A DNA stretch of 11,636 bases from Pseudomonadota bacterium. Its GTDB lineage: Bacteria; Myxococcota; Bradymonadia; UBA4248. This document shows positions 1-8,244 of the stretch, piece by piece (the stretch's first letter is position 1; every line of letters starts with the position of its first letter). Made by a program: the position numbers and the translations under genes. Below the pieces are notes generated by a model. It was not told where the DNA came from. It made no database searches and saw nothing but the letters and a program-made list of their open reading frames with translations. Location of the stretch: NCBI GenBank assembly GCA_017613855.1, contig JAGACY010000004.1, forward strand, positions 1-11,636, given 5' to 3'.

Positions 1-366
1 ATGAATAGCATTAGAGGGAAGAGAAGGACTCACCCGTAAAATGAGTTATAAACTATAAGCTATAAGCTTAATTTATATCCATGTTTGTTCAACACAGCCT
101 AATGTAAAGGCTGGACCACAGTGCTTTGTGCATGGTTTGGATAGCGGTTAGCTAGTTTTGGTTTATGGTACACCTCTTAAATATTAGAATTTTTGTACCA
201 TATTGTAAAGGCTTTCGGGGGGCCGTATACGCGAATCGCCGCGTATGGCGCGTATGCGCCATAGCGGCGATGGCGAGCTGTAGGGGCGGCCCTGCGTGGC
301 CGCCCCAAGGCGAGCAGCGGCGTTCCGTATGCCGCAGGCATAGGCACGCCCCATGATAAATGTTTA
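1..366. other. intergenic region containing hairpin element A
   Basis: No convincing gene is visible. The first ~210 bases are AT-rich, with a short direct repeat of TATAAGC near 57-68 and a weak AGCC...GGCT inverted repeat near 96-115. From about 217 the base composition becomes GC-rich because of hairpin element A, listed separately. Short open frames that cross the element on either strand merely read through its inverted repeats; their peptides, rich in R, A, Y and G, recur at element C for that reason, so I do not call them genes. The region lies downstream of the minus-strand lipoprotein gene that ends at 367. Confidence 0.7.
235..344 (+). repeat. hairpin element A (three hairpins, REP-like)
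   Basis: Three consecutive hairpins are visible. The first has arms 235-251 and 256-271 around the loop GTAT, with 16 paired bases and one unpaired G at 243. The second has arms 283-291 (GGGGCGGCC) and 298-306 (GGCCGCCCC), a perfect 9-bp stem. The third has arms 325-333 and 337-344, the core TATGCC-GCA-GGCATA, and an unpaired G at 327. Hairpin one recurs in element C and hairpin three in element D. There is no T-run on either side to make this a classical intrinsic terminator, although it could protect or end the transcript of the adjacent minus-strand gene. I interpret it as a REP-like mosaic repeat. Confidence 0.75.
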
Positions 367-2025
367 TTAATTTTTAGGACAATAGGATTTATCCACCGGA
401 ACCCAGCGAGCAGTACCATCTGTCATGACTTTGCACATTACGCAGAAGGCTTTAAATCTATACGTAGAATCAGGATACTTCATTCCAGTCAAATTATACT
501 TATCTCCTTCCCCAAATGTTACGGTGAATGTGGGATCATCACTATGATATTGTGCTACTTGCGTTTTTCCTATTTCCGTGCACGATGAATATTCATCAAA
601 TTCTTTACATGTGGCACCAATACCATCTTTTGCATAGATACATCCGGATTTGCATGATAAAAAGATGACACCACCTTGCCACCCCTCACCTTCACCTCCC
701 CCATGTAGAGTGTCATCCATATAACCGCAATAATTTAGACTCGTATTGTAGCAGAAAGAAAATGTATTACTGCAGTCCTGCCACTTTTTAACAGAAATGC
801 AGCTATCCGTATTGAGTGGACAATAGGGCGTTTGGTTGGGGCAGCTGGCGGTCGTCCATTGGCCGTTTTTACAGGTCTTAAGGCTGTGATAATCATCGGC
901 ACACATCGTTTTGCCATTCTCACACTCGCTGCATACACCATCCTTGCATACTTTACCACCACTGCAATTCTCGCTTTCCCAGTGGCCTTCGTCATTACAT
1001 TTGTACACTTGTTTATCGCTTAAGCATTTCTTTTCGCCCGGTGAGCATTCTTTGGGGGCTTCTTCGCAGGCATTATTTTTACAGACGGGTTTGTCGTCGG
1101 GGCATTTCTTATAATCCCAGGCATTGTCGACACAGGTGGCGAGTGTTTCATCGTCGGCGCATTTGATTTGTGCCTCCGTGCATTGGGCGGGGCCGCATTC
1201 ATTTTTCTCCATATCACAAACGGGGATATCCTTGGGGCAGTCGGTAAACTGCCAGTATTTATCCTGTCCGCATACCTGTACGCGCGTTGAGGAGACGCAT
1301 TTTTGCTGTCCGATATCATTGCACGGCAATTTGCTCGTGATATCTTCGCCTGCACACTGGCCATTTTTGCAGGAGGTATTGCCGGTACAGGGAATGGTAT
1401 CGGACCATGTGCCCGAAACGCATACGCGGTACCCCTTGTTGTCGGGCGTGCATTCGGGTTGTGTAGCGGTGCAGGTTTCTTTTGGAGTGACGCATTCGCT
1501 ATCCTCTTCGTCACTGCAAATCGTCCCTTCGGCACAGTTAAATACGTCCGATGACCACTGGCCGTTTGCACCATTGCCGGCGCATACGACGTATCCCTTA
1601 TGATCTTCGGTGCATTTTTTATCGCCAGTTTCGCAAACGTCATCTTCACTGACGCATTTGCCATTCAGGCAGGCTTGATCATCTTCACATGGGATGCGCT
1701 CTGACCAAAAGCCGCCATTGCAGAGACGATAGCTATGTTTGCCCTGGCATTCGGGCGGTTGGTTGGTGCATGTTTCACTGGATACTGCACTGCAGTTGCC
1801 TTCGAAGCACTTCTGATCCCCGCCGCATGAGTGCATTTCTTCTTCGCCATTGACACATATAATGGCCATGACGTCGGATAAACAGTAGGGAGTACACTCC
1901 TCTTCATTATTATTGGCTTTTTTACTGTCTTCGCCGCACGACAGTGCTGCAACGCTCAGTGTTCCTAACAAAATGGCAATGAGTGCATGATATTTCATAG
2001 AGGGGAGAGTTGTACCGGTTATCAT
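367..2025 (-). CDS. cysteine-rich lipoprotein with eight six-Cys modules
   Basis: Predicted exported lipoprotein of 552 residues; molecular function not recognised. The N-terminus has a hydrophobic segment (about 11-29) ending in A-A-L-S-C, so Cys30 is the likely lipidated residue. A Glu/Asn/Lys-rich spacer follows. Residues 44-409 hold eight modules of roughly 40 residues, each with exactly six cysteines (for example 86, 93, 102, 113, 119, 124 and 327, 334, 343, 354, 360, 365), usually with G-x-W shortly before the fourth. This is consistent with three disulfides per module. Residues 410-552 form a different C-terminal domain with ten cysteines. I chose the ATG at 2025 because AAGGAT (2035-2040) lies 9 nt upstream, as in the neighbouring gene. 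An alternative ATG at 1998 would give a more typical short signal peptide (Cys21) but lacks a ribosome site. The gene has a separate, good promoter, so it need not be co-transcribed with the gene at 3518. Likely role: surface binding or adhesion (inference). Confidence 0.85.
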   Translation of the reverse strand: MITGTTLPSMKYHALIAILLGTLSVAALSCGEDSKKANNNEEECTPYCLSDVMAIICVNGEEEMHSCGGDQKCFEGNCSAVSSETCTNQPPECQGKHSYRLCNGGFWSERIPCEDDQACLNGKCVSEDDVCETGDKKCTEDHKGYVVCAGNGANGQWSSDVFNCAEGTICSDEEDSECVTPKETCTATQPECTPDNKGYRVCVSGTWSDTIPCTGNTSCKNGQCAGEDITSKLPCNDIGQQKCVSSTRVQVCGQDKYWQFTDCPKDIPVCDMEKNECGPAQCTEAQIKCADDETLATCVDNAWDYKKCPDDKPVCKNNACEEAPKECSPGEKKCLSDKQVYKCNDEGHWESENCSGGKVCKDGVCSECENGKTMCADDYHSLKTCKNGQWTTASCPNQTPYCPLNTDSCISVKKWQDCSNTFSFCYNTSLNYCGYMDDTLHGGGEGEGWQGGVIFLSCKSGCIYAKDGIGATCKEFDEYSSCTEIGKTQVAQYHSDDPTFTVTFGEGDKYNLTGMKYPDSTYRFKAFCVMCKVMTDGTARWVPVDKSYCPKN

Positions 2026-2249
2026 GTTATTTGTATCCTTATATTATAAGACAATAATACTGCACATGCAGTCAGTCACATCAGCAACGCAGCTTATACA
2101 ACATTATTCAGTGCTTTTCAAATCAGGCTATGTAATATACCGGTTGGTACCGGTGTTTTTTGTGCTCAAACTCCCCCATTTGAATGTCTGCATAACGAAT
2201 CTTTCTATGCTGATGTGGCGGATAAGATTTATATTTTAAGTCCTTATGA
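2026..2249. other. intergenic region between the two cysteine-rich lipoproteins
   Basis: This AT-rich 224-bp gap holds a promoter for the downstream gene (2093-2121, minus strand). It also contains ACCGGT-TGGT-ACCGGT (near 2139-2154) followed by a run of T on the plus strand, and a small CTGCA-CA-TGCAG inverted repeat at 2060-2071. No gene is visible. Confidence 0.6.
2093..2121 (-). promoter_or_regulatory. sigma70-type promoter for the gene at 2025
   Basis: Read on the minus strand, TTGAAA (2116-2121) is followed after exactly 17 nt by TATAAG (2093-2098). These match the -35 and -10 consensus at 4/6 and 5/6 positions. Transcription would start near 2086 and leave a leader of about 60 nt before the AAGGAT ribosome site and the ATG at 2025. 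A second TATAAT at 2043-2048 is too close to the ribosome site to serve the same start codon. Confidence 0.5.
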
Positions 2250-3518
2250 TTACCAGTTGCAAATCGACTTGCAGTTCTGGCAGCTGTCCCCATTGCAGTA
2301 GGCTGTGGTACTGCTTGGGTAACATGTATTGCTCGTTGCGCACATATCCGTGGGACAGGTCGATTTTTCGACCTTACCTTTTCGGCATGTCAGACTCGTT
2401 CTATTTGAACAATAGGAGAAGCTGTAAAAACACTCGCCACAGTTGATGCCGTCTTCCTGACATGCAGAAACGCGATATTCACGGCCTGTTGTTTTGCCAT
2501 TGCTATCGTAACCATAGACTGTGATGATATCCTTCGTGCCAAGTGTGTAAGTGGGCAATTGTTCGTTCGGCAAATGGCCATAAAAACAGTTCTCGGGATC
2601 ATCTATTTTCAGTGGTTCCCATTTGCCATGGATGCACTTGGAACGCTTGCCGATGATGAATCCCTGAGGAAGGGTGAACTTGGCACCATAATAGTCGAAA
2701 TAGCTAAAATCTTCGGGGACGTTGCCGTCTTCGCATTTGAAAGAGCCTTCCATGCATTCGCCGCAAATCTTTTCATCGATATGCGTGCAGGGAGTGTCTT
2801 TGTCTTCGCATTCGTCAAGTGCAAGGCAGGAAACACTCTCACATGTCTTGGTTTCGACCCATGCACCCTCGCGGCAAGTATAAATGACGCCGTTTCCATC
2901 TTCGCCATTCTCGCACTTGGTTTCGTAATTGCGGCATTCGCCGCATTTTTCACTGCCGGCGCAGGATGCATTCTTTTTGCATACGTTACTTTCGCAGTTC
3001 TCAATATCCTTACACTGACCAATCCCCTTGTCATTGTTCTTACAAGCGGGTTCGGGCGGTTCTGTCGGTGGGCACGTTGAACAGTCGTTGGGACATTCCT
3101 CGCACTTGGGGCCGCATGCATCGCATTTGGGGTCGCATTCGTCGCATGTACTGCATTGCTCGCATTTGGGGCCGCATGCATCGCAGTTATTGGGGCATTC
3201 GTCACAGGTACAAGGTTCTCCCGGTTCTTTGCATTCACATTTAGGGCACTCAGGAGTGGCGGGGCAATTGTTCGGACAGTTTGCACAAACGTCCGGGTCA
3301 GTCGCCGAACCGGAGCTGCATTTGCCTTTTGAATCACACCATTTGGCATCAGCGCATTTTTCACCGCTGCAGACGCATGCGTCTCCATCCAGGGTACCGC
3401 CGGTTTGTTCGCAAAGGCTCAACTTGTTGCCCGTTTCGGATGGCGATGGATCATCATCACAAGCAGTTATTCCCAAACATGCGCCCAAAAGCGCGATTAC
3501 TATCCATTGATTTCGCAT
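2250..3518 (-). CDS. cysteine-rich lipoprotein with a CxxC/Pro-rich segment
   Basis: Predicted exported lipoprotein of 422 residues; no family recognised. The signal peptide ends I-T-A-C, so Cys20 is the lipidation site, followed by D-D-D. Residues 36-67 form a small six-Cys module (36, 48, 50, 55, 61, 67). Residues 78-149 are extremely rich in Cys, Pro and acidic residues, with many C-x-x-C pairs and a repeated C-D-A-C-G-P-K-C unit at 112 and 132. The remainder carries three units that start C-G-E-C (192, 252, 360), then C about six residues later, then C-x-x-G-x-W or similar. They resemble the last modules of the neighbouring lipoprotein. The middle unit contains a long Tyr/Phe-rich insertion. 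The ATG at 3518 has AAGGAT 4 nt upstream. The acidic C-x-x-C belt could bind metal or form a disulfide-rich stalk; neither is shown by the sequence. Confidence 0.85.
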   Translation of the reverse strand: MRNQWIVIALLGACLGITACDDDPSPSETGNKLSLCEQTGGTLDGDACVCSGEKCADAKWCDSKGKCSSGSATDPDVCANCPNNCPATPECPKCECKEPGEPCTCDECPNNCDACGPKCEQCSTCDECDPKCDACGPKCEECPNDCSTCPPTEPPEPACKNNDKGIGQCKDIENCESNVCKKNASCAGSEKCGECRNYETKCENGEDGNGVIYTCREGAWVETKTCESVSCLALDECEDKDTPCTHIDEKICGECMEGSFKCEDGNVPEDFSYFDYYGAKFTLPQGFIIGKRSKCIHGKWEPLKIDDPENCFYGHLPNEQLPTYTLGTKDIITVYGYDSNGKTTGREYRVSACQEDGINCGECFYSFSYCSNRTSLTCRKGKVEKSTCPTDMCATSNTCYPSSTTAYCNGDSCQNCKSICNW

Positions 3519-3625
3519 ATAAATCCTTTACTCTGCTGTTTTATCGTTCGTTATTGAGTTTTAAAGTGAGCGCTTTTCTGGCCTCAGGCGGTACATACCG
3601 TGTGTCCATCGCCTGCTCTGCGGTC

Positions 3626-3654
3626 AATTTAGTTTTTTACATGATCGTTTTCAA
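3626..3654 (-). promoter_or_regulatory. candidate promoter for the gene at 3518
   Basis: On the minus strand TTGAAA (3649-3654) is followed after 17 nt by TAAATT (3626-3631). The -35 box equals that of the neighbouring lipoprotein gene, but the -10 box matches consensus at only four positions. The leader would be about 100 nt and would include the CGGTA-CA-TACCG palindrome. Confidence 0.3.
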
Positions 3655-3659
3655 GTTAC

Positions 3660-4085
3660 TCAAGAGCGAGTCCTCTCTTCCTTTGATTTTGAACAATCGC
3701 ATGGCTTCTGCTTTGTTATATTCAGTCTGCCTTTGTATTCGTGCACCACGTTGGTCATGGCAAACCTCTTTTGCGTTGAGCCGGATTCCCCAAAAGCGTT
3801 ATAGAGTATAGCGGCATTATCGGGATTTGCCGATGCATTTGGGGATTGGAATGCGCTCATCCCAAAACGACAACGGCCGGCGTATCGATTTGCGATAGCC
3901 GGCCGCAAATGCGCGTCCGTATACGGCCTCACCGACTCTCGGCCGCTTTGCAGCGATCCCTTCTTCCTATACAATTTGCCGAAGGAAGGGACATTTATAA
4001 TTATCTCTAATTTCCTTGTTTTTGTGGGGAACCCAACGGGGGGGGTATCATTGGGGATGTCCCTGATGTTTTGGTCAATGAACAT
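3660..4085 (-). other. doubtful open frame, possible gene relic
   Basis: An uninterrupted 141-codon minus-strand frame starts at an ATG at 4085, but it runs straight through hairpin element B and an eight-C run, and I see no clear ribosome site. Its last third (about 3660-3800) is less repeat-like. In that stretch a second minus-strand frame, ending at the TAA at 3637-3639, also reads like protein, including a short amphipathic, Lys/Leu-rich end. Two plausible overlapping frames and no confident start suggest either chance or the eroded end of an old gene. No function or family is recognised, and I do not call it a gene. Confidence 0.2.
3864..3927 (+). repeat. hairpin element B
   Basis: The main hairpin has arms 3874-3887 and 3893-3905 with loop ATTTG. 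Thirteen bases pair perfectly around one unpaired G at 3882. It is followed by the palindrome CCGTATACGG (3917-3926). Over about 60 bases, including flanks on both sides of the hairpin, the sequence matches element D between the ankyrin genes, with only scattered substitutions and a small indel. Confidence 0.7.
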
Positions 4086-4142
4086 TTCCCGATCATAATA
4101 ATTCCAGTGAGAATGGCGATGTTACATTCGGCAGCAAAAAAA

Positions 4143-4209
4143 ATCGCCGCGTATGGCGCGAATGCACCATAGCGGCGATAGCAAGCCGTATCGGCCAAAA
4201 GCCGATAGG
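4143..4209 (+). repeat. hairpin element C
   Basis: The first hairpin has arms 4143-4159 and 4164-4179, loop GAAT, an unpaired G at 4151 and one mismatch (4157/4166). It is nearly the same as the first hairpin of element A. The second has arms 4186-4195 and 4201-4209 with loop CAAAA and an unpaired G at 4188. It occupies the place of the TATGCC/GGCATA hairpin of elements A and D but has different stem bases that still pair. The sequence immediately after it, GGCGCGCCACCAT, is shared with element D. It ends about 139 nt before the ankyrin start codon. Confidence 0.7.
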
Positions 4210-4276
4210 CGCGCCACCATCAGAAGATTCATTATGGTTCCTGCAGAATCGTAATGATGAATTATTTATTCAATGT

Positions 4277-4282
4277 TATAAC
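4277..4282 (+). promoter_or_regulatory. candidate -10 box of the first ankyrin gene
   Basis: TATAAC (5/6 match) sits in AATGTTATA, a string preserved at the corresponding place before the second ankyrin gene (8168-8176, giving TATAGT at 8173-8178). No good -35 box is seen 16-18 nt upstream in either copy. The leader would be roughly 60 nt. Conservation in both copies is the only real support. Confidence 0.3.
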
Positions 4283-4300
4283 AGGCTCGGTCGTTCCTTG

Positions 4301-4342
4301 ATGTTATGTAAGCATGTGAAATCCTTATCCGAACCGGAGTAA
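4301..4342 (+). other. possible short upstream ORF in the ankyrin leader
   Basis: An ATG at 4301 opens a 13-codon frame (M-L-C-K-H-V-K-S-L-S-E-P-E) that stops 5 nt before the ankyrin ATG at 4348 and overlaps its ribosome site (GGAG, 4336-4339). The corresponding place before the second ankyrin gene also has a short frame, M-K-L-C-K-H-V, at 8194-8217. The peptide resembles the first residues of the ankyrin protein itself (M-L-C-K ... S-L). There is no clear ribosome site of its own, so it may be a duplicated start region and not a translated leader. Confidence 0.25.
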
Positions 4343-4347
4343 AAATA

Positions 4348-7300
4348 ATGTTGTGTAAAGAAATTTTGTCCCTGAGACGCTCTCATTTTTCAGGAATAAC
4401 CCGGCTCTCATCTATCCTGTTGTGCATGGGAATTTCGGCTCTTACTGCCGGCTGCAATGCCCCGAATGTGCAGCAGCCATTGGTAAATGAGGTAACACAG
4501 GAGGCGCCGTCGGGAGAGGCAAATGGAGCTGCGACGCAGTCAGTGCCTGAGACTGCCGCCAACGAAGCCAAACAACCGGAAAATGGGGTGTCAAACGATA
4601 CCGCTGTCGTACCCGAAACACCGCAGCCTGCACTCGATAATCTCCCATCTGGGGAGTCCAAGCCTGAATCCGGTCACCCCAATGCAGAAACTGAGGTTAC
4701 AGACGACAGGGATGCGATTTTGGAAGAAATCGTCAAGTGTTATCCATGCTTTGCAAATCCAAAAGCGGATAAATGCAATTCGAGTAAGGAATGCGATGGT
4801 GTTGAAGAATTGGTCAAAAACGGAACCTATCTGAGTCGTTTTTTTGATAACAATCAGGCCGCTTTTGATGCAAGACTTAAAATATTGCAAAAAGAGATCG
4901 ATGAATGTGTAGATGCGTTTGTAAATCGTGAAACTTATACGGCAAGAAGTGAACCAGAATGTGATTATGTATTTGGAGAATACAGTACTTTGAGGGAACT
5001 TCAATCGGAGAAAGCGGATGCGGATTGGCTAAAAGCGCATAAACTGCCGGATAGCTATCGAATAAAGAATGAAAAAGAATGGGGTTTTAAAAGTTACTGC
5101 GGATGTAGCGAATGCCGCAATAAGTCCGGTTATGTGATTACGAATTCTTTTGATTTTGCTGAAACCAATGAAGAATTACTTCCGGATATCATATCTGTAG
5201 GAACGATCGAATTGAATAAAGCAGATGAAGACGGCAATACGCTGATGCATCGGTATGGCCGTAATCCGGCAATAGCCAAAGCGCTTATTGAAAAAGGAGC
5301 GGACTTGACGCTGAAAAATAAAGATGGCAAGTGCGCATTTTACGGCATCGAAGAGTCGCTTCGCCGTGAGTTGATCTTATCGGGGTTGGATACGAGCAAA
5401 GTGATCAACTCCGATGGCAATACGACGCTTCACAGTTATGCGAATGATGTGGAAGTCGCAAAAGTACTTATTCAAAGCGGTGCTGATGTGCATCAGAAAA
5501 ACGAGGAGGGACGCACGCCCATTTTTTATGCCCGAAGCGTGGATGCTTTCAAACTGCTGATAGATCGCGGCGCGGATATCAAAGCATTGGACAATCATCA
5601 TCATACCCTGCTTCATGCGGCTTTAAATACCGAAATTCTGTCATTTCTGCATGGGCTGGGGCTAGATGTCAACGCGCAAAACGATGATGGTCGGACGCCG
5701 ATTTTCTTTGCAGACAGTATGGATGCGTTAAAATGGTATATCGATCACGGTGCAGATGTTAAAGTGACAGACAAACATGGCAATAACCTGCTGCACTCGA
5801 AAGCATTTAATTCTGAAATGCGTGGGATGATGTTAAATTACAATCTGGATATCAATGCCCAAAACGACGAAGGGCAAACGCCGCTGTTTTTAGTTGATCT
5901 AAAGAATACGGATCTACTTTCTGCCTATATCAAAGCTGGAGCGGATATCAATGCCGAAGACAAGCTGGGAAATACCATCGCACATTACCAGTTTGCACCC
6001 AAAGATTCATGGGAATTGCTTTTACAATCGGGGTTTAATATCAATACGAAAAACGACCGTGACGAGCCTGCCTGGTTTGTACGCTATAAGCAGGAATGCT
6101 TAGGAGCCGGCGACAGAGTCGTGGACAGTTGGGAATTGGGCAAGCAAGAAGAAGAATTATTGGATGCATATCTTGTGCATGGGGCGGATGTCCATGTCCA
6201 TGACGACCATGGCAATACGCTGCTTCATAGAACTTTAAAATGCGACATAAAAGATGACAAAGAAATCGATTGTTACGATGAATCTTTACAATTTAGTAAA
6301 TCACGGATTGAAAAGCTGATCAAAGCCGGTATTGATGTCAACGAACGCAATGAGGAGGGCTATACCCCAATTTTTAGCTGTATTTATAAGGAAGCGAGTT
6401 GGCTTGCTCAATACGATGATGACTGTTTTAATCTTTTGAAAGAACTTGGTGCAGACATTCATGCCACGACCAACAAAGGCGATAATTTGTTCACAGAATG
6501 CATCCGCGAAGCCTGTAATTATTATAATTTACTCTTTAAAAATCAACTGCATCAAAACTTGTCTGAAACGACGATTCAGCTTGCGCTTGAAGCTTATAAA
6601 AAAACTGTATTTGATCGTGATGCTACTTGTAGATCTGTTCAGACTTATGATCCGGCTGATGATGGTATCGATGAATATTGCTGGTCCTATCTTGAAGATC
6701 AGCAATTATTGCCACTCATGATGGATTACGGTCTTGATTTGAAAGACGGCTATATGTGTATTCTCGGTGCGCCGAAAGCAGAGACGAATGAGCAGAAACA
6801 AAAGGTTGCAGATGTCATCAACGAAAAAATATGCGGTGGTGGCTGCACTGCGTTTAATCAAAGAAATTGGTCTGAGTCAGAGATAGACCGCTTTATCCGT
6901 GCCGGTGCGGACATCAATACCCAGGATGATGAAGGCAAAACACCGCTGATGAAGAACGGCATCGATTTCGATGGTACGGATGCCGGCCCCTACGATTGCA
7001 TCAATGTGAATAAAATTACTCAATTTGTAAAAAACGGCGCGGACATCAATCTGCGCGATCATGATGGTAAAACGATTCTGAACTATGTGATTCATTTATT
7101 GAATGATGGATCGAATTCTTATTGTCCGGGAACTCCTTGTGGGTTGAGTGCGGAATGCAATATTGATATTGTCTCCTATCTGATTAAAAATGGCGCGGAC
7201 GTCAGTAGCCGCATTGGCAACGGCGAAACGATTCTTATGTATGCGACCGATCATTGTAATGAAAAACTCATTAAACAGCTCATAAACAAGGGCGCGGATG

Positions 7301-8028
7301 TCAATGCCAAAGACAATAGCGGCAAATCCGCTCTCATGTATGCAGTTGTCAAGCCGTGCGATGAAAAACTCGTCAAATTGCTCATAGCCAAAGGCGCAGA
7401 TGTGAATGCCAAAGATAATGACGGTACATCCGTTCTCATGCATGCGGCAGAAAGGGGCGGCCAAGAAGTCATCAAATTGCTCATAGCCAAAGGTGCGGAC
7501 ATCAATGACAAAGACAATGATGGCACATCCGTACTCGCTTATGGGGCTGCGGAGTGCAATGAAAACCTTATCAAGCAACTCATAGCCAAAGGTGCAGATG
7601 TGAATGCCAAAGACAATAAGGGCAAATCTGTTCTTATGTACACATCTGTTAGTGTGTATGGAGATGCATATGAAAAGTGCAGTGGCCCCATTGAACTGCT
7701 TATAAATAAAGGCGCGGATGTGCACGCCAAAGACAATGGCGGCAAATCCGTTCTCATGAATGCGCGCCAAACGGCAGAATACATCGAACATCTCATAGCC
7801 AAAGGTGCTGACGTCAATGCCCAAGATGACAACGGCAAATCCGTTCTCATGTATTCAATCCAAAAGTGTAATAGACGACTCATCGAACTGCTCATAGACA
7901 AAGGTGCAGACATCAACGCCAAAGACAATACGGGTAAATCCGTTCTCGAGTATGCTGCAGGATGCAACGAGGTGATTAAAGAATTGCTCAAAAATAAAGG
8001 GGCAAATGAAGAAAGAGCCGCAAACTGA
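4348..8028 (+). CDS. giant ankyrin-repeat lipoprotein, copy 1
   Basis: Exported protein of 1226 residues built mainly of ankyrin repeats, a protein-binding fold; partner unknown. A signal peptide ends L-T-A-G-C, with Cys36 the likely lipidated residue. Residues 37-111 are a Pro/Glu/Ala/Thr-rich linker. Residues 112-290 are a unique domain with C131-x-x-C134, C143, C149 and C251-G-C-S-E-C256. About two dozen ankyrin repeats follow: a divergent block (about 292-680) that alternates T-x-L-H and T-P-x-F repeats, a less regular part (about 690-955), and a uniform block (about 957-1220) with the core G-K-S-V-L-M-Y-A ... L-L-I-A-K-G-A-D-V-N-A-K-D. GGAG at 4336-4339 is well placed for the ATG at 4348. 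The next gene is its tandem paralogue. The type of signal peptide and the paired cysteines indicate a periplasmic or surface location, not a cytoplasmic effector. Confidence 0.9.
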   Translation: MLCKEILSLRRSHFSGITRLSSILLCMGISALTAGCNAPNVQQPLVNEVTQEAPSGEANGAATQSVPETAANEAKQPENGVSNDTAVVPETPQPALDNLPSGESKPESGHPNAETEVTDDRDAILEEIVKCYPCFANPKADKCNSSKECDGVEELVKNGTYLSRFFDNNQAAFDARLKILQKEIDECVDAFVNRETYTARSEPECDYVFGEYSTLRELQSEKADADWLKAHKLPDSYRIKNEKEWGFKSYCGCSECRNKSGYVITNSFDFAETNEELLPDIISVGTIELNKADEDGNTLMHRYGRNPAIAKALIEKGADLTLKNKDGKCAFYGIEESLRRELILSGLDTSKVINSDGNTTLHSYANDVEVAKVLIQSGADVHQKNEEGRTPIFYARSVDAFKLLIDRGADIKALDNHHHTLLHAALNTEILSFLHGLGLDVNAQNDDGRTPIFFADSMDALKWYIDHGADVKVTDKHGNNLLHSKAFNSEMRGMMLNYNLDINAQNDEGQTPLFLVDLKNTDLLSAYIKAGADINAEDKLGNTIAHYQFAPKDSWELLLQSGFNINTKNDRDEPAWFVRYKQECLGAGDRVVDSWELGKQEEELLDAYLVHGADVHVHDDHGNTLLHRTLKCDIKDDKEIDCYDESLQFSKSRIEKLIKAGIDVNERNEEGYTPIFSCIYKEASWLAQYDDDCFNLLKELGADIHATTNKGDNLFTECIREACNYYNLLFKNQLHQNLSETTIQLALEAYKKTVFDRDATCRSVQTYDPADDGIDEYCWSYLEDQQLLPLMMDYGLDLKDGYMCILGAPKAETNEQKQKVADVINEKICGGGCTAFNQRNWSESEIDRFIRAGADINTQDDEGKTPLMKNGIDFDGTDAGPYDCINVNKITQFVKNGADINLRDHDGKTILNYVIHLLNDGSNSYCPGTPCGLSAECNIDIVSYLIKNGADVSSRIGNGETILMYATDHCNEKLIKQLINKGADVNAKDNSGKSALMYAVVKPCDEKLVKLLIAKGADVNAKDNDGTSVLMHAAERGGQEVIKLLIAKGADINDKDNDGTSVLAYGAAECNENLIKQLIAKGADVNAKDNKGKSVLMYTSVSVYGDAYEKCSGPIELLINKGADVHAKDNGGKSVLMNARQTAEYIEHLIAKGADVNAQDDNGKSVLMYSIQKCNRRLIELLIDKGADINAKDNTGKSVLEYAAGCNEVIKELLKNKGANEERAAN
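7213..8010 (+). repeat. uniform ankyrin-unit tandem repeats in copy 1
   Basis: About eight tandem units of roughly 96-120 bp encode the sequence G-K-S-V-L-M-Y-A plus a variable stretch and L-L-I-x-K-G-A-D-V-N-A-K-D. The DNA is also similar from unit to unit, with recurring strings such as CTCATAGCCAAAGGTGC and GCCAAAGACAAT. This points to recent unit duplication. Unit lengths differ because of insertions in the variable loop, such as the eleven-residue V-S-V-Y-G-D-A-Y-E-K-C stretch. Confidence 0.75.
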
Positions 8029-8036
8029 ATTGTATT

Positions 8037-8117
8037 AAAAACGCCAACGTCCGGCGTATCGCTTTGCGATAGCCGGCCGCTATGCGCGTCCGTATGCCGC
8101 AGGCATAGGCGCGCCAC
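8037..8117 (+). repeat. hairpin element D between the ankyrin paralogues
   Basis: The element begins 9 nt after the stop codon of the first ankyrin gene. Its first hairpin has arms 8051-8062 and 8066-8076 with loop TTT and an unpaired G at 8056. The second has arms 8090-8098 and 8102-8109 with loop GCA and an unpaired G at 8092. The first half matches element B and the second half matches the end of element A, so it is a mosaic. It may act as a transcript end or stabiliser between the two genes. There is no T-run, so a standard intrinsic terminator is not supported. Confidence 0.7.
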
Positions 8118-8172
8118 CATTAAAAGATTCATGGTAATTTCGGCGAAAATTATGATGTATCATTTTAAATGT

Positions 8173-8218
8173 TATAGTAATCACGGCAGTCTTATGAAGT
8201 TATGTAAGCATGTATAAT
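8173..8218 (+). promoter_or_regulatory. candidate promoter region of the second ankyrin gene
   Basis: Two -10-like boxes are seen: TATAGT at 8173-8178, aligned with the box before copy 1, and a perfect TATAAT at 8213-8218 that copy 1 lacks (TGAAAT there). Neither has a strong -35 box. If the second is used, the leader would be only about 20 nt and just contain the ribosome site. The two paralogues may therefore be expressed differently. Confidence 0.3.
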
Positions 8219-8244
8219 CCTTATCCCAAATGGAGCCATCAATC

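Follow-up and report, generated by a model that had tools for sequence, protein, structure and literature searches.

An unpaired G marks a high-copy family of hairpin repeats in one clade of Myxococcota

The hairpins of the window, the 11,636-nt stretch of contig JAGACY010000004.1 analyzed here, are members of a repeat family that one mostly gut-dwelling clade of Myxococcota carries at high copy number. The structure of these repeats, its conservation, their copy number, their dispersal, and their arrangement in strand-defined doublets were all directly observed. We give an even chance to the reading that they are a REP-like non-autonomous family in which a protein reads the bulge and the doublet is dispersed in trans, most likely by a Y1 HUH enzyme of the RAYT/IS200 type. 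The unpaired G is probably a handle for recognition by a putative protein.

The original prediction described seven hairpins in four elements, each with an unpaired G before TA, and all seven folded in this way. They are all on the forward strand and, as was also predicted, lie between genes, outside the four long ORFs taken as such. Two of these ORFs encode ankyrin-repeat proteins, one of them with a 79% identical relative in locus L017 (goat omasum MAG RGIG2907), and the other two encode cysteine-rich proteins that have no match in Pfam. Element 1 carries a hairpin at 235-271 (bulged G at 243, predicted fold) and another at 319-350 (bulged G at 327, from the fold of 300-352 and the pattern). 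Element 1 also holds a GTAG at 280 followed by a bulge-free hairpin (about 280-305, forward strand), which we read from the sequence as canonical REP-like and outside the bulged-G family. Relatives of positions 249-329 are present in L002, L058, and L079. The predicted hairpin of element 2 is at 3874-3905 (bulged G at 3882), and a second CCGTAT at about 3917-3925 looks like a decayed second hairpin copy. Element 3 has predicted hairpins at 4143-4179 (bulged G at 4151) and 4185-4210 (bulged G at 4188). The stems had been described as paired throughout outside the bulge; the folds agree, except that the tip of 4143-4179 is imperfect. Element 4 has a predicted hairpin at 8051-8076 (bulged G at 8056) and one at 8084-8114 (bulged G at 8092, from the fold of 8080-8120 and the pattern). 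Both together form a doublet unit (8046-8117, forward strand), with copies at 85-86% identity in L017 and L089; one of the L017 copies was seen in unrelated flanks. The pattern CGTATN{4,30}ATAG matches the window nine times, compared with a mean of 1.65 in shuffled sequence, and none of 200 shuffles reached nine; the match at 808 is not such a hairpin, and two of the nine overlap within 235-271.

Elements 3 and 4 are placed alike before the two paralogous ankyrin genes (4180-4350 and 8100-8230). The sequence downstream of the two elements is similar and their hairpin stems are unlike, as if the hairpins had been swapped after the ankyrin gene duplicated. Separately, positions 41-97 have an 82% match in L213 (genome G004) and are perhaps another repeat.

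A 22-nt pattern taken from the second hairpin matched 111 stretches in genome contigs. The 80 of these matches that were listed came mostly from six MAGs (RGIG464, RGIG2907, RGIG4413, RGIG7731, UBA4248, and SRR12081292_bin.20), four of which have ruminant gut as their sample source; UBA4248 belongs to the Myxococcota in the NCBI taxonomy. A genome-wide search with a covariance model, as the original prediction had proposed, found many copies. The model was built from 30 hairpins and run at an E-value of 0.1, and it gave at least 173-200 matches in each of 8 of the 38 relatives and 0-2 in the other 30, numbers that are lower bounds. In a sample of 282 genomes from the phylum, which includes all eight hairpin-rich genomes, nine had a match at 0.001: the same eight and one genome with a single match; copy counts from this sample are lower bounds as well. 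By direct counting, the density per Mb was 127 hairpins in G008 and 235-251 in G004, G005, and G007; on contigs chosen blind to matches, the densities were 137 (G008), 203 (G004), and 226 (G005) per Mb. At 127-251 hairpins per Mb, each genome would carry roughly 300 to 1,100. Far from having few further copies, the family thus numbers hundreds per genome in eight genomes of the clade. A scan of viral contigs with the pattern returned no matches.

The unpaired G is conserved genome-wide, as predicted. When single-bulge Watson-Crick hairpins were enumerated without reference to the motif at 98 pattern loci, with seed matches removed and with L082, L094, and L097 left out as not of the clade, 147 of 166 carried C[G]TA. 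A shuffled control produced seven hairpins, with no C[G]TA among the four classes listed. The same class made up 108 of 138 single-bulge hairpins on 60 contigs picked regardless of matches, and the control genome G009 gave nine single-bulge hairpins with no C[G]TA among the top five classes listed. In 1.6 Mb from four genomes, hairpins with a TA foot and a lone 5′ bulge had G in 207 cases and another base in 11 (A 4, C 6, T 1). A two-base bulge was counted 8 times and no bulge 28 times, the latter amounting to about 14 hairpins read on both strands. The 15 other dinucleotide feet were mostly without a bulge. Of the 207 G-bulge hairpins, all but one (206) had C-G as the pair below the bulge and T as the third base.

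The rest of the hairpin is free to vary. Across 30 aligned hairpins, the only invariant parts are C, G, TAT, and ATAG, and the other eight pairs vary on both sides. Changes on both sides filled 65 cells of this alignment vs. 15.0 in shuffles; the rows were selected as paired, and their paired percentage is therefore circular. We counted 122 different upper stems among 320 hairpins, with pairing kept by compensating changes. The 5′ arm of the upper stem favors T over A (172 vs. 29); in the outer stem the two are equal (69 and 69). Most loops have 3 or 4 nt. Single mismatches on the strand of the bulged G were G.T in 47 cases and A.C in 24, which counts for folding of that strand, though the excess of G.T is modest and some of the outer mismatches just mark the end of a stem. 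No flank position rose above 47% toward a fixed motif; both counts include L082, L094, and L097, which are outside the clade. A frequent context of short-stem hairpins is a GA on either side, as in GCGA-GCC...GGC-GAGC (L115, L063, L002, and others). These flanks could form tandem G.A pairs, and among outer mismatches A.G and G.A are the most frequent.

A free tip above a fixed foot suggests that the recognised part is the foot and bulge. The oriented strand would fold as a hairpin of single-stranded DNA, and a protein would read the bulged G and the adjoining TA step on that one strand rather than the stem sequence. The doublet itself would be non-autonomous and owe its dispersal to an enzyme acting in trans, for which a Y1 HUH transposase of the RAYT/IS200 type is the likeliest candidate.

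Dispersal is visible in the doublets themselves. Comparison of 207 doublets and triplets gave 254 pairs with 80% or more similarity across 85% of the length, and in 64 of these, involving 66 elements, both members were in the same genome with both flanks unrelated. A hairpin-bearing stretch present in L002 is missing from the nearly identical L079. A clean empty site between genomes was not found among 875 junction queries, whose 86 spanning matches were mostly the locus itself; cases at orthologous sites are few because most genome pairs are only 67-82% alike. L127, L129, and L123 share one locus whose array is conserved, with two of its hairpins retained, though the flank on one side has diverged. 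The third hairpin there has a longer stem in L127, extended on both arms, and its bulge is an A in L123. Such a conserved array could also speak for sites maintained by the host, where the bulged hairpin would be bound by a protein of the nucleoid, of replication, or of recombination rather than copied by a transposase. We regard this as possible but on the unlikely side: similar doublets dispersed in unrelated flanks look like copying, presence and absence at matched loci also count against it, and hairpin positions are too little conserved in these data for a broad test.

How stems diverge can be followed in a 91-nt repeat of G008 (L321-L350), which has at least 40 copies, from 44 matches, and consists of three successive hairpins with the bulged-G one in the middle. 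In 27 copies the flanks are 84-88% alike, compared with 62% for the upper stems. Both arms differ in 648 of 1686 compared pairs, a comparison in which the zero count of one-sided changes arises by construction. The left stem is in view in 31 copies, and 27 of these have a complementary tip. Arm complementarity may be kept by templated correction of one arm from the other. Such correction ought also to erase the bulge; that the bulge persists therefore suggests either that it is under selection or that bulged copies are preferentially copied. The loop of some G008 copies contains inserts. One is a GTAG hairpin in a single orientation (L201); another, a branched multi-copy stretch of about 110-150 nt, occupies bulged-G loops in L344, L205, and L204, also of G008.

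The hairpins are mainly, but not exclusively, intergenic as had been expected: on contigs chosen blind to matches, 96 of 150 lie outside ORFs of at least 90 aa, which cover 87-90% of bases. Their position relative to genes bears on whether they act in transcripts, as 3′ ends, stabilizers, or protein-binding sites. The 3′ end was the nearer gene end for 165 of 238 placed clusters, and between-gene sites were fewer for divergent genes (6) than for convergent ones (19), as such RNA elements might be distributed. Clusters had a mild tendency to point at the nearer gene (135 vs. 103; among those clearly off-centre, 81 vs. 48). The orientation of the hairpins does not follow that of the genes. At tandem-gene sites, 24 were sense and 18 antisense (these counts and the divergent and convergent ones include L082, L094, and L097, outside the clade), and near 3′ ends, 69 were sense and 96 antisense. 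This lack of preference for the sense strand of neighboring genes speaks against an RNA element, and Rfam gave no match in the window at gathering score and two weak ones, below gathering, in six loci. We therefore consider a role in RNA very unlikely.

Orientation is instead ordered among the hairpins. Neighbors less than 40 nt apart had the same orientation in 106 of 106 cases, in 92 of 92 after removal of non-family loci and repeats, and in 43 of 44 on blind contigs; the inverse pairing at short range that is typical of BIMEs and REPINs was absent from the set of 92. The doublets are head-to-tail and about 65-75 bp long, and only 6 of 340 clusters are of mixed orientation. Between clusters the order changes. 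Neighboring clusters within 1.5 kb were arranged -..+ 25 times, +..- 3 times, and in the same orientation 10 times. Within 5 kb, G004, G005, G007, and G008 together had 20 same and 72 opposite neighbors, an alternation not equaled in 5000 label shuffles, in a dataset where some contigs were chosen for holding matches. At 5-20 kb in these genomes there was no alternation (31 same, 41 opposite, p 0.44). Pattern loci of G001, G002, G003, and G006 within 5 kb (13 same, 26 opposite, p 0.36) are not significant alone, 60 blind contigs gave 20 opposite and 15 same at spacings above 300 nt, and the window itself has all four elements on the forward strand. The strand alternation of four genomes is among the points in favor of host-maintained sites.

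A different account of the orientation is that the hairpins are the ends of a mobile unit. Two bulged-G hairpins in the same orientation would be the left and right ends of a single-stranded DNA element of a new class, recognised by the bulge alone with the stems free. We think this unlikely. If it held, two neighboring copies in the same orientation would bracket the intervening genes as a segment that could be excised, and the opposite orientation of most neighbors within about 5 kb would result from the loss of such arrangements.

The original prediction had proposed looking for a Y1/RAYT gene in the same genome, and several genomes of the clade do have one. A search with PF01797 found Y1 genes in five of the first six genomes, the only Y1 type in G002 being an IS200-like gene. 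NF047646 matched six of eight genomes at an E-value of 1, above the cut-off in G004, G005, and G008. This does not extend to every genome: the hairpin-rich G006 and G007 have no credible Y1 match, though both are MAGs and may be incomplete. G006 had only a match at 0.2 with an internal stop for NF047646 and none for PF01797, and G007 had none for NF047646 and one at 0.38 for PF01797. High copy in all eight genomes, including these two, is again what host-maintained sites would lead one to expect.

Linkage of hairpins to RAYT genes at first seemed strong. Arrays are 19-50 nt from the RAYTs of L123, L124, L127, and L129 and 23 nt from that of L116. There was no hairpin within 200 nt of the RAYT in L130, L134, L252, L254, or the partial L137, L138, and L139. 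Counted by distinct locus, three of eight have a bulged-G hairpin within 200 nt, or four of eight if a fused frame is counted whole. The distances are 19-50 nt at three loci and 505 nt at one (L130); at the fused frame the hairpin is 127 nt from the frame end and 691 nt from the RAYT part, and the remaining three have no hairpin in view. We downgraded this linkage, since 99 of 397 ordinary genes (25%; L082, L094, and L097, outside the clade, included) have a hairpin cluster within 200 nt, L123, L127, and L129 represent the same orthologous locus, and other RAYT loci are without hairpins in that range. Hairpins occur near the IS200-like Y1 genes of L117 and L118 and about 250 nt from that of L115, and none near those of L112, L113, L114, and L275. 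The RAYT type of L252 and L253 lies amid its own GC-rich in-frame tandem repeats. In both loci this RAYT (NF047646, about 93 bits) shares one open frame with other coding sequence, which in L253 is methyltransferase-like by eye. No cognate enzyme of the bulged-G hairpins was found among the Y1 genes of the clade. The suggested likeness to REPs and RAYTs thus holds for high copy, mainly intergenic position, a conserved irregularity, and RAYTs in several genomes. It falters on RAYT proximity near background, on at least two RAYT types with their own repeats, and on the lack of GT[AG]G.

Canonical repeats are nevertheless close by. The RAYT gene of L123 has an in-frame GTAG...CTAC double-foot hairpin, a feature reported for RAYT subclass 2.4 (PMC6006769), of which this gene may be a member. 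Of 133 hairpins tagged with GT[AG]G, 28 lie within 40 nt of a bulged-G hairpin, 22 of them in the same orientation, compared with 4 of 133 random positions. This enrichment indicates that the two kinds share sites, and the window has a mosaic of this sort in element 1. RAYTs of the clade with canonical GTAG repeats could then also move bulged-G hairpins as passengers of mosaic elements. Such carriage seems quite unlikely to us: on the same contigs (1.6 Mb), 320 bulged-G hairpins compare with 57 tagged perfect ones, most of the former are without a tagged neighbor, and MAGs without a RAYT still carry them.

If the family is REP-like and dispersed in trans, it bears on the open question of how RAYT-type enzymes choose their hairpins. 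It varies nearly everywhere except at the bulged G and its TA neighbors, in hundreds of copies per genome, and thus isolates the recognition signal by natural experiment. The orientation pattern along the chromosome, should closed genomes bear it out, would be a trace left by the activity of the element itself.

Among known systems, the ends of IS200/IS605 elements such as IS608, and their miniature derivatives, are strand-specific hairpins with an extrahelical base, two of them in the same orientation, one at each end of the unit. The bulged-G units differ in that they have no inner gene, their stems vary by copy, and putative ends and guides were not identified in them. No family with the bulged-G signature was found in Rfam or in the open-license PMC literature, in line with the original prediction, and no account of REPs in this clade was found in that literature. 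Genome-wide REP searches have depended on the GT[AG]G tag (PMC6006769), which this REP-like family lacks: within 0-2 nt 5′ of the hairpins it occurs in 5 of 317, with 5.05 expected by chance. A CGTC-like tag (CGTC, TGTC, or CCTC) at the 5′ end was found in 2 of 317, with about 15 expected. Repeats tagged with CGTC, e.g., dRS3, are similar palindromes with A/T first pairs, and a dedicated transposase was not found for them in the survey that describes them (PMC3733652). Their dimers are mostly head-to-head, with head-to-tail ones negligible, and most REP families likewise have few head-to-tail dimers or none at all (PMC3733652). The bulged-G doublets, in contrast, are head-to-tail, unlike either the CGTC dimers or the inverted pairs of BIMEs and REPINs. 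The closest parallel is with group 2 REPs of E. coli (TnpA_REP/RAYT), which likewise number in the hundreds and are short intergenic hairpins whose imperfect stem has a conserved irregularity; the bulged-G family shares with REPs the character of high-copy, mainly intergenic palindromes. The activity of the E. coli REP is reported to need its AA-GC bulge, with C27 contacted by the protein (PMC8266576). The family described here has a single G at the TA step instead of the AA-GC mismatch, no linked transposase was found for it, and its stems are free in sequence where the bulge is fixed.
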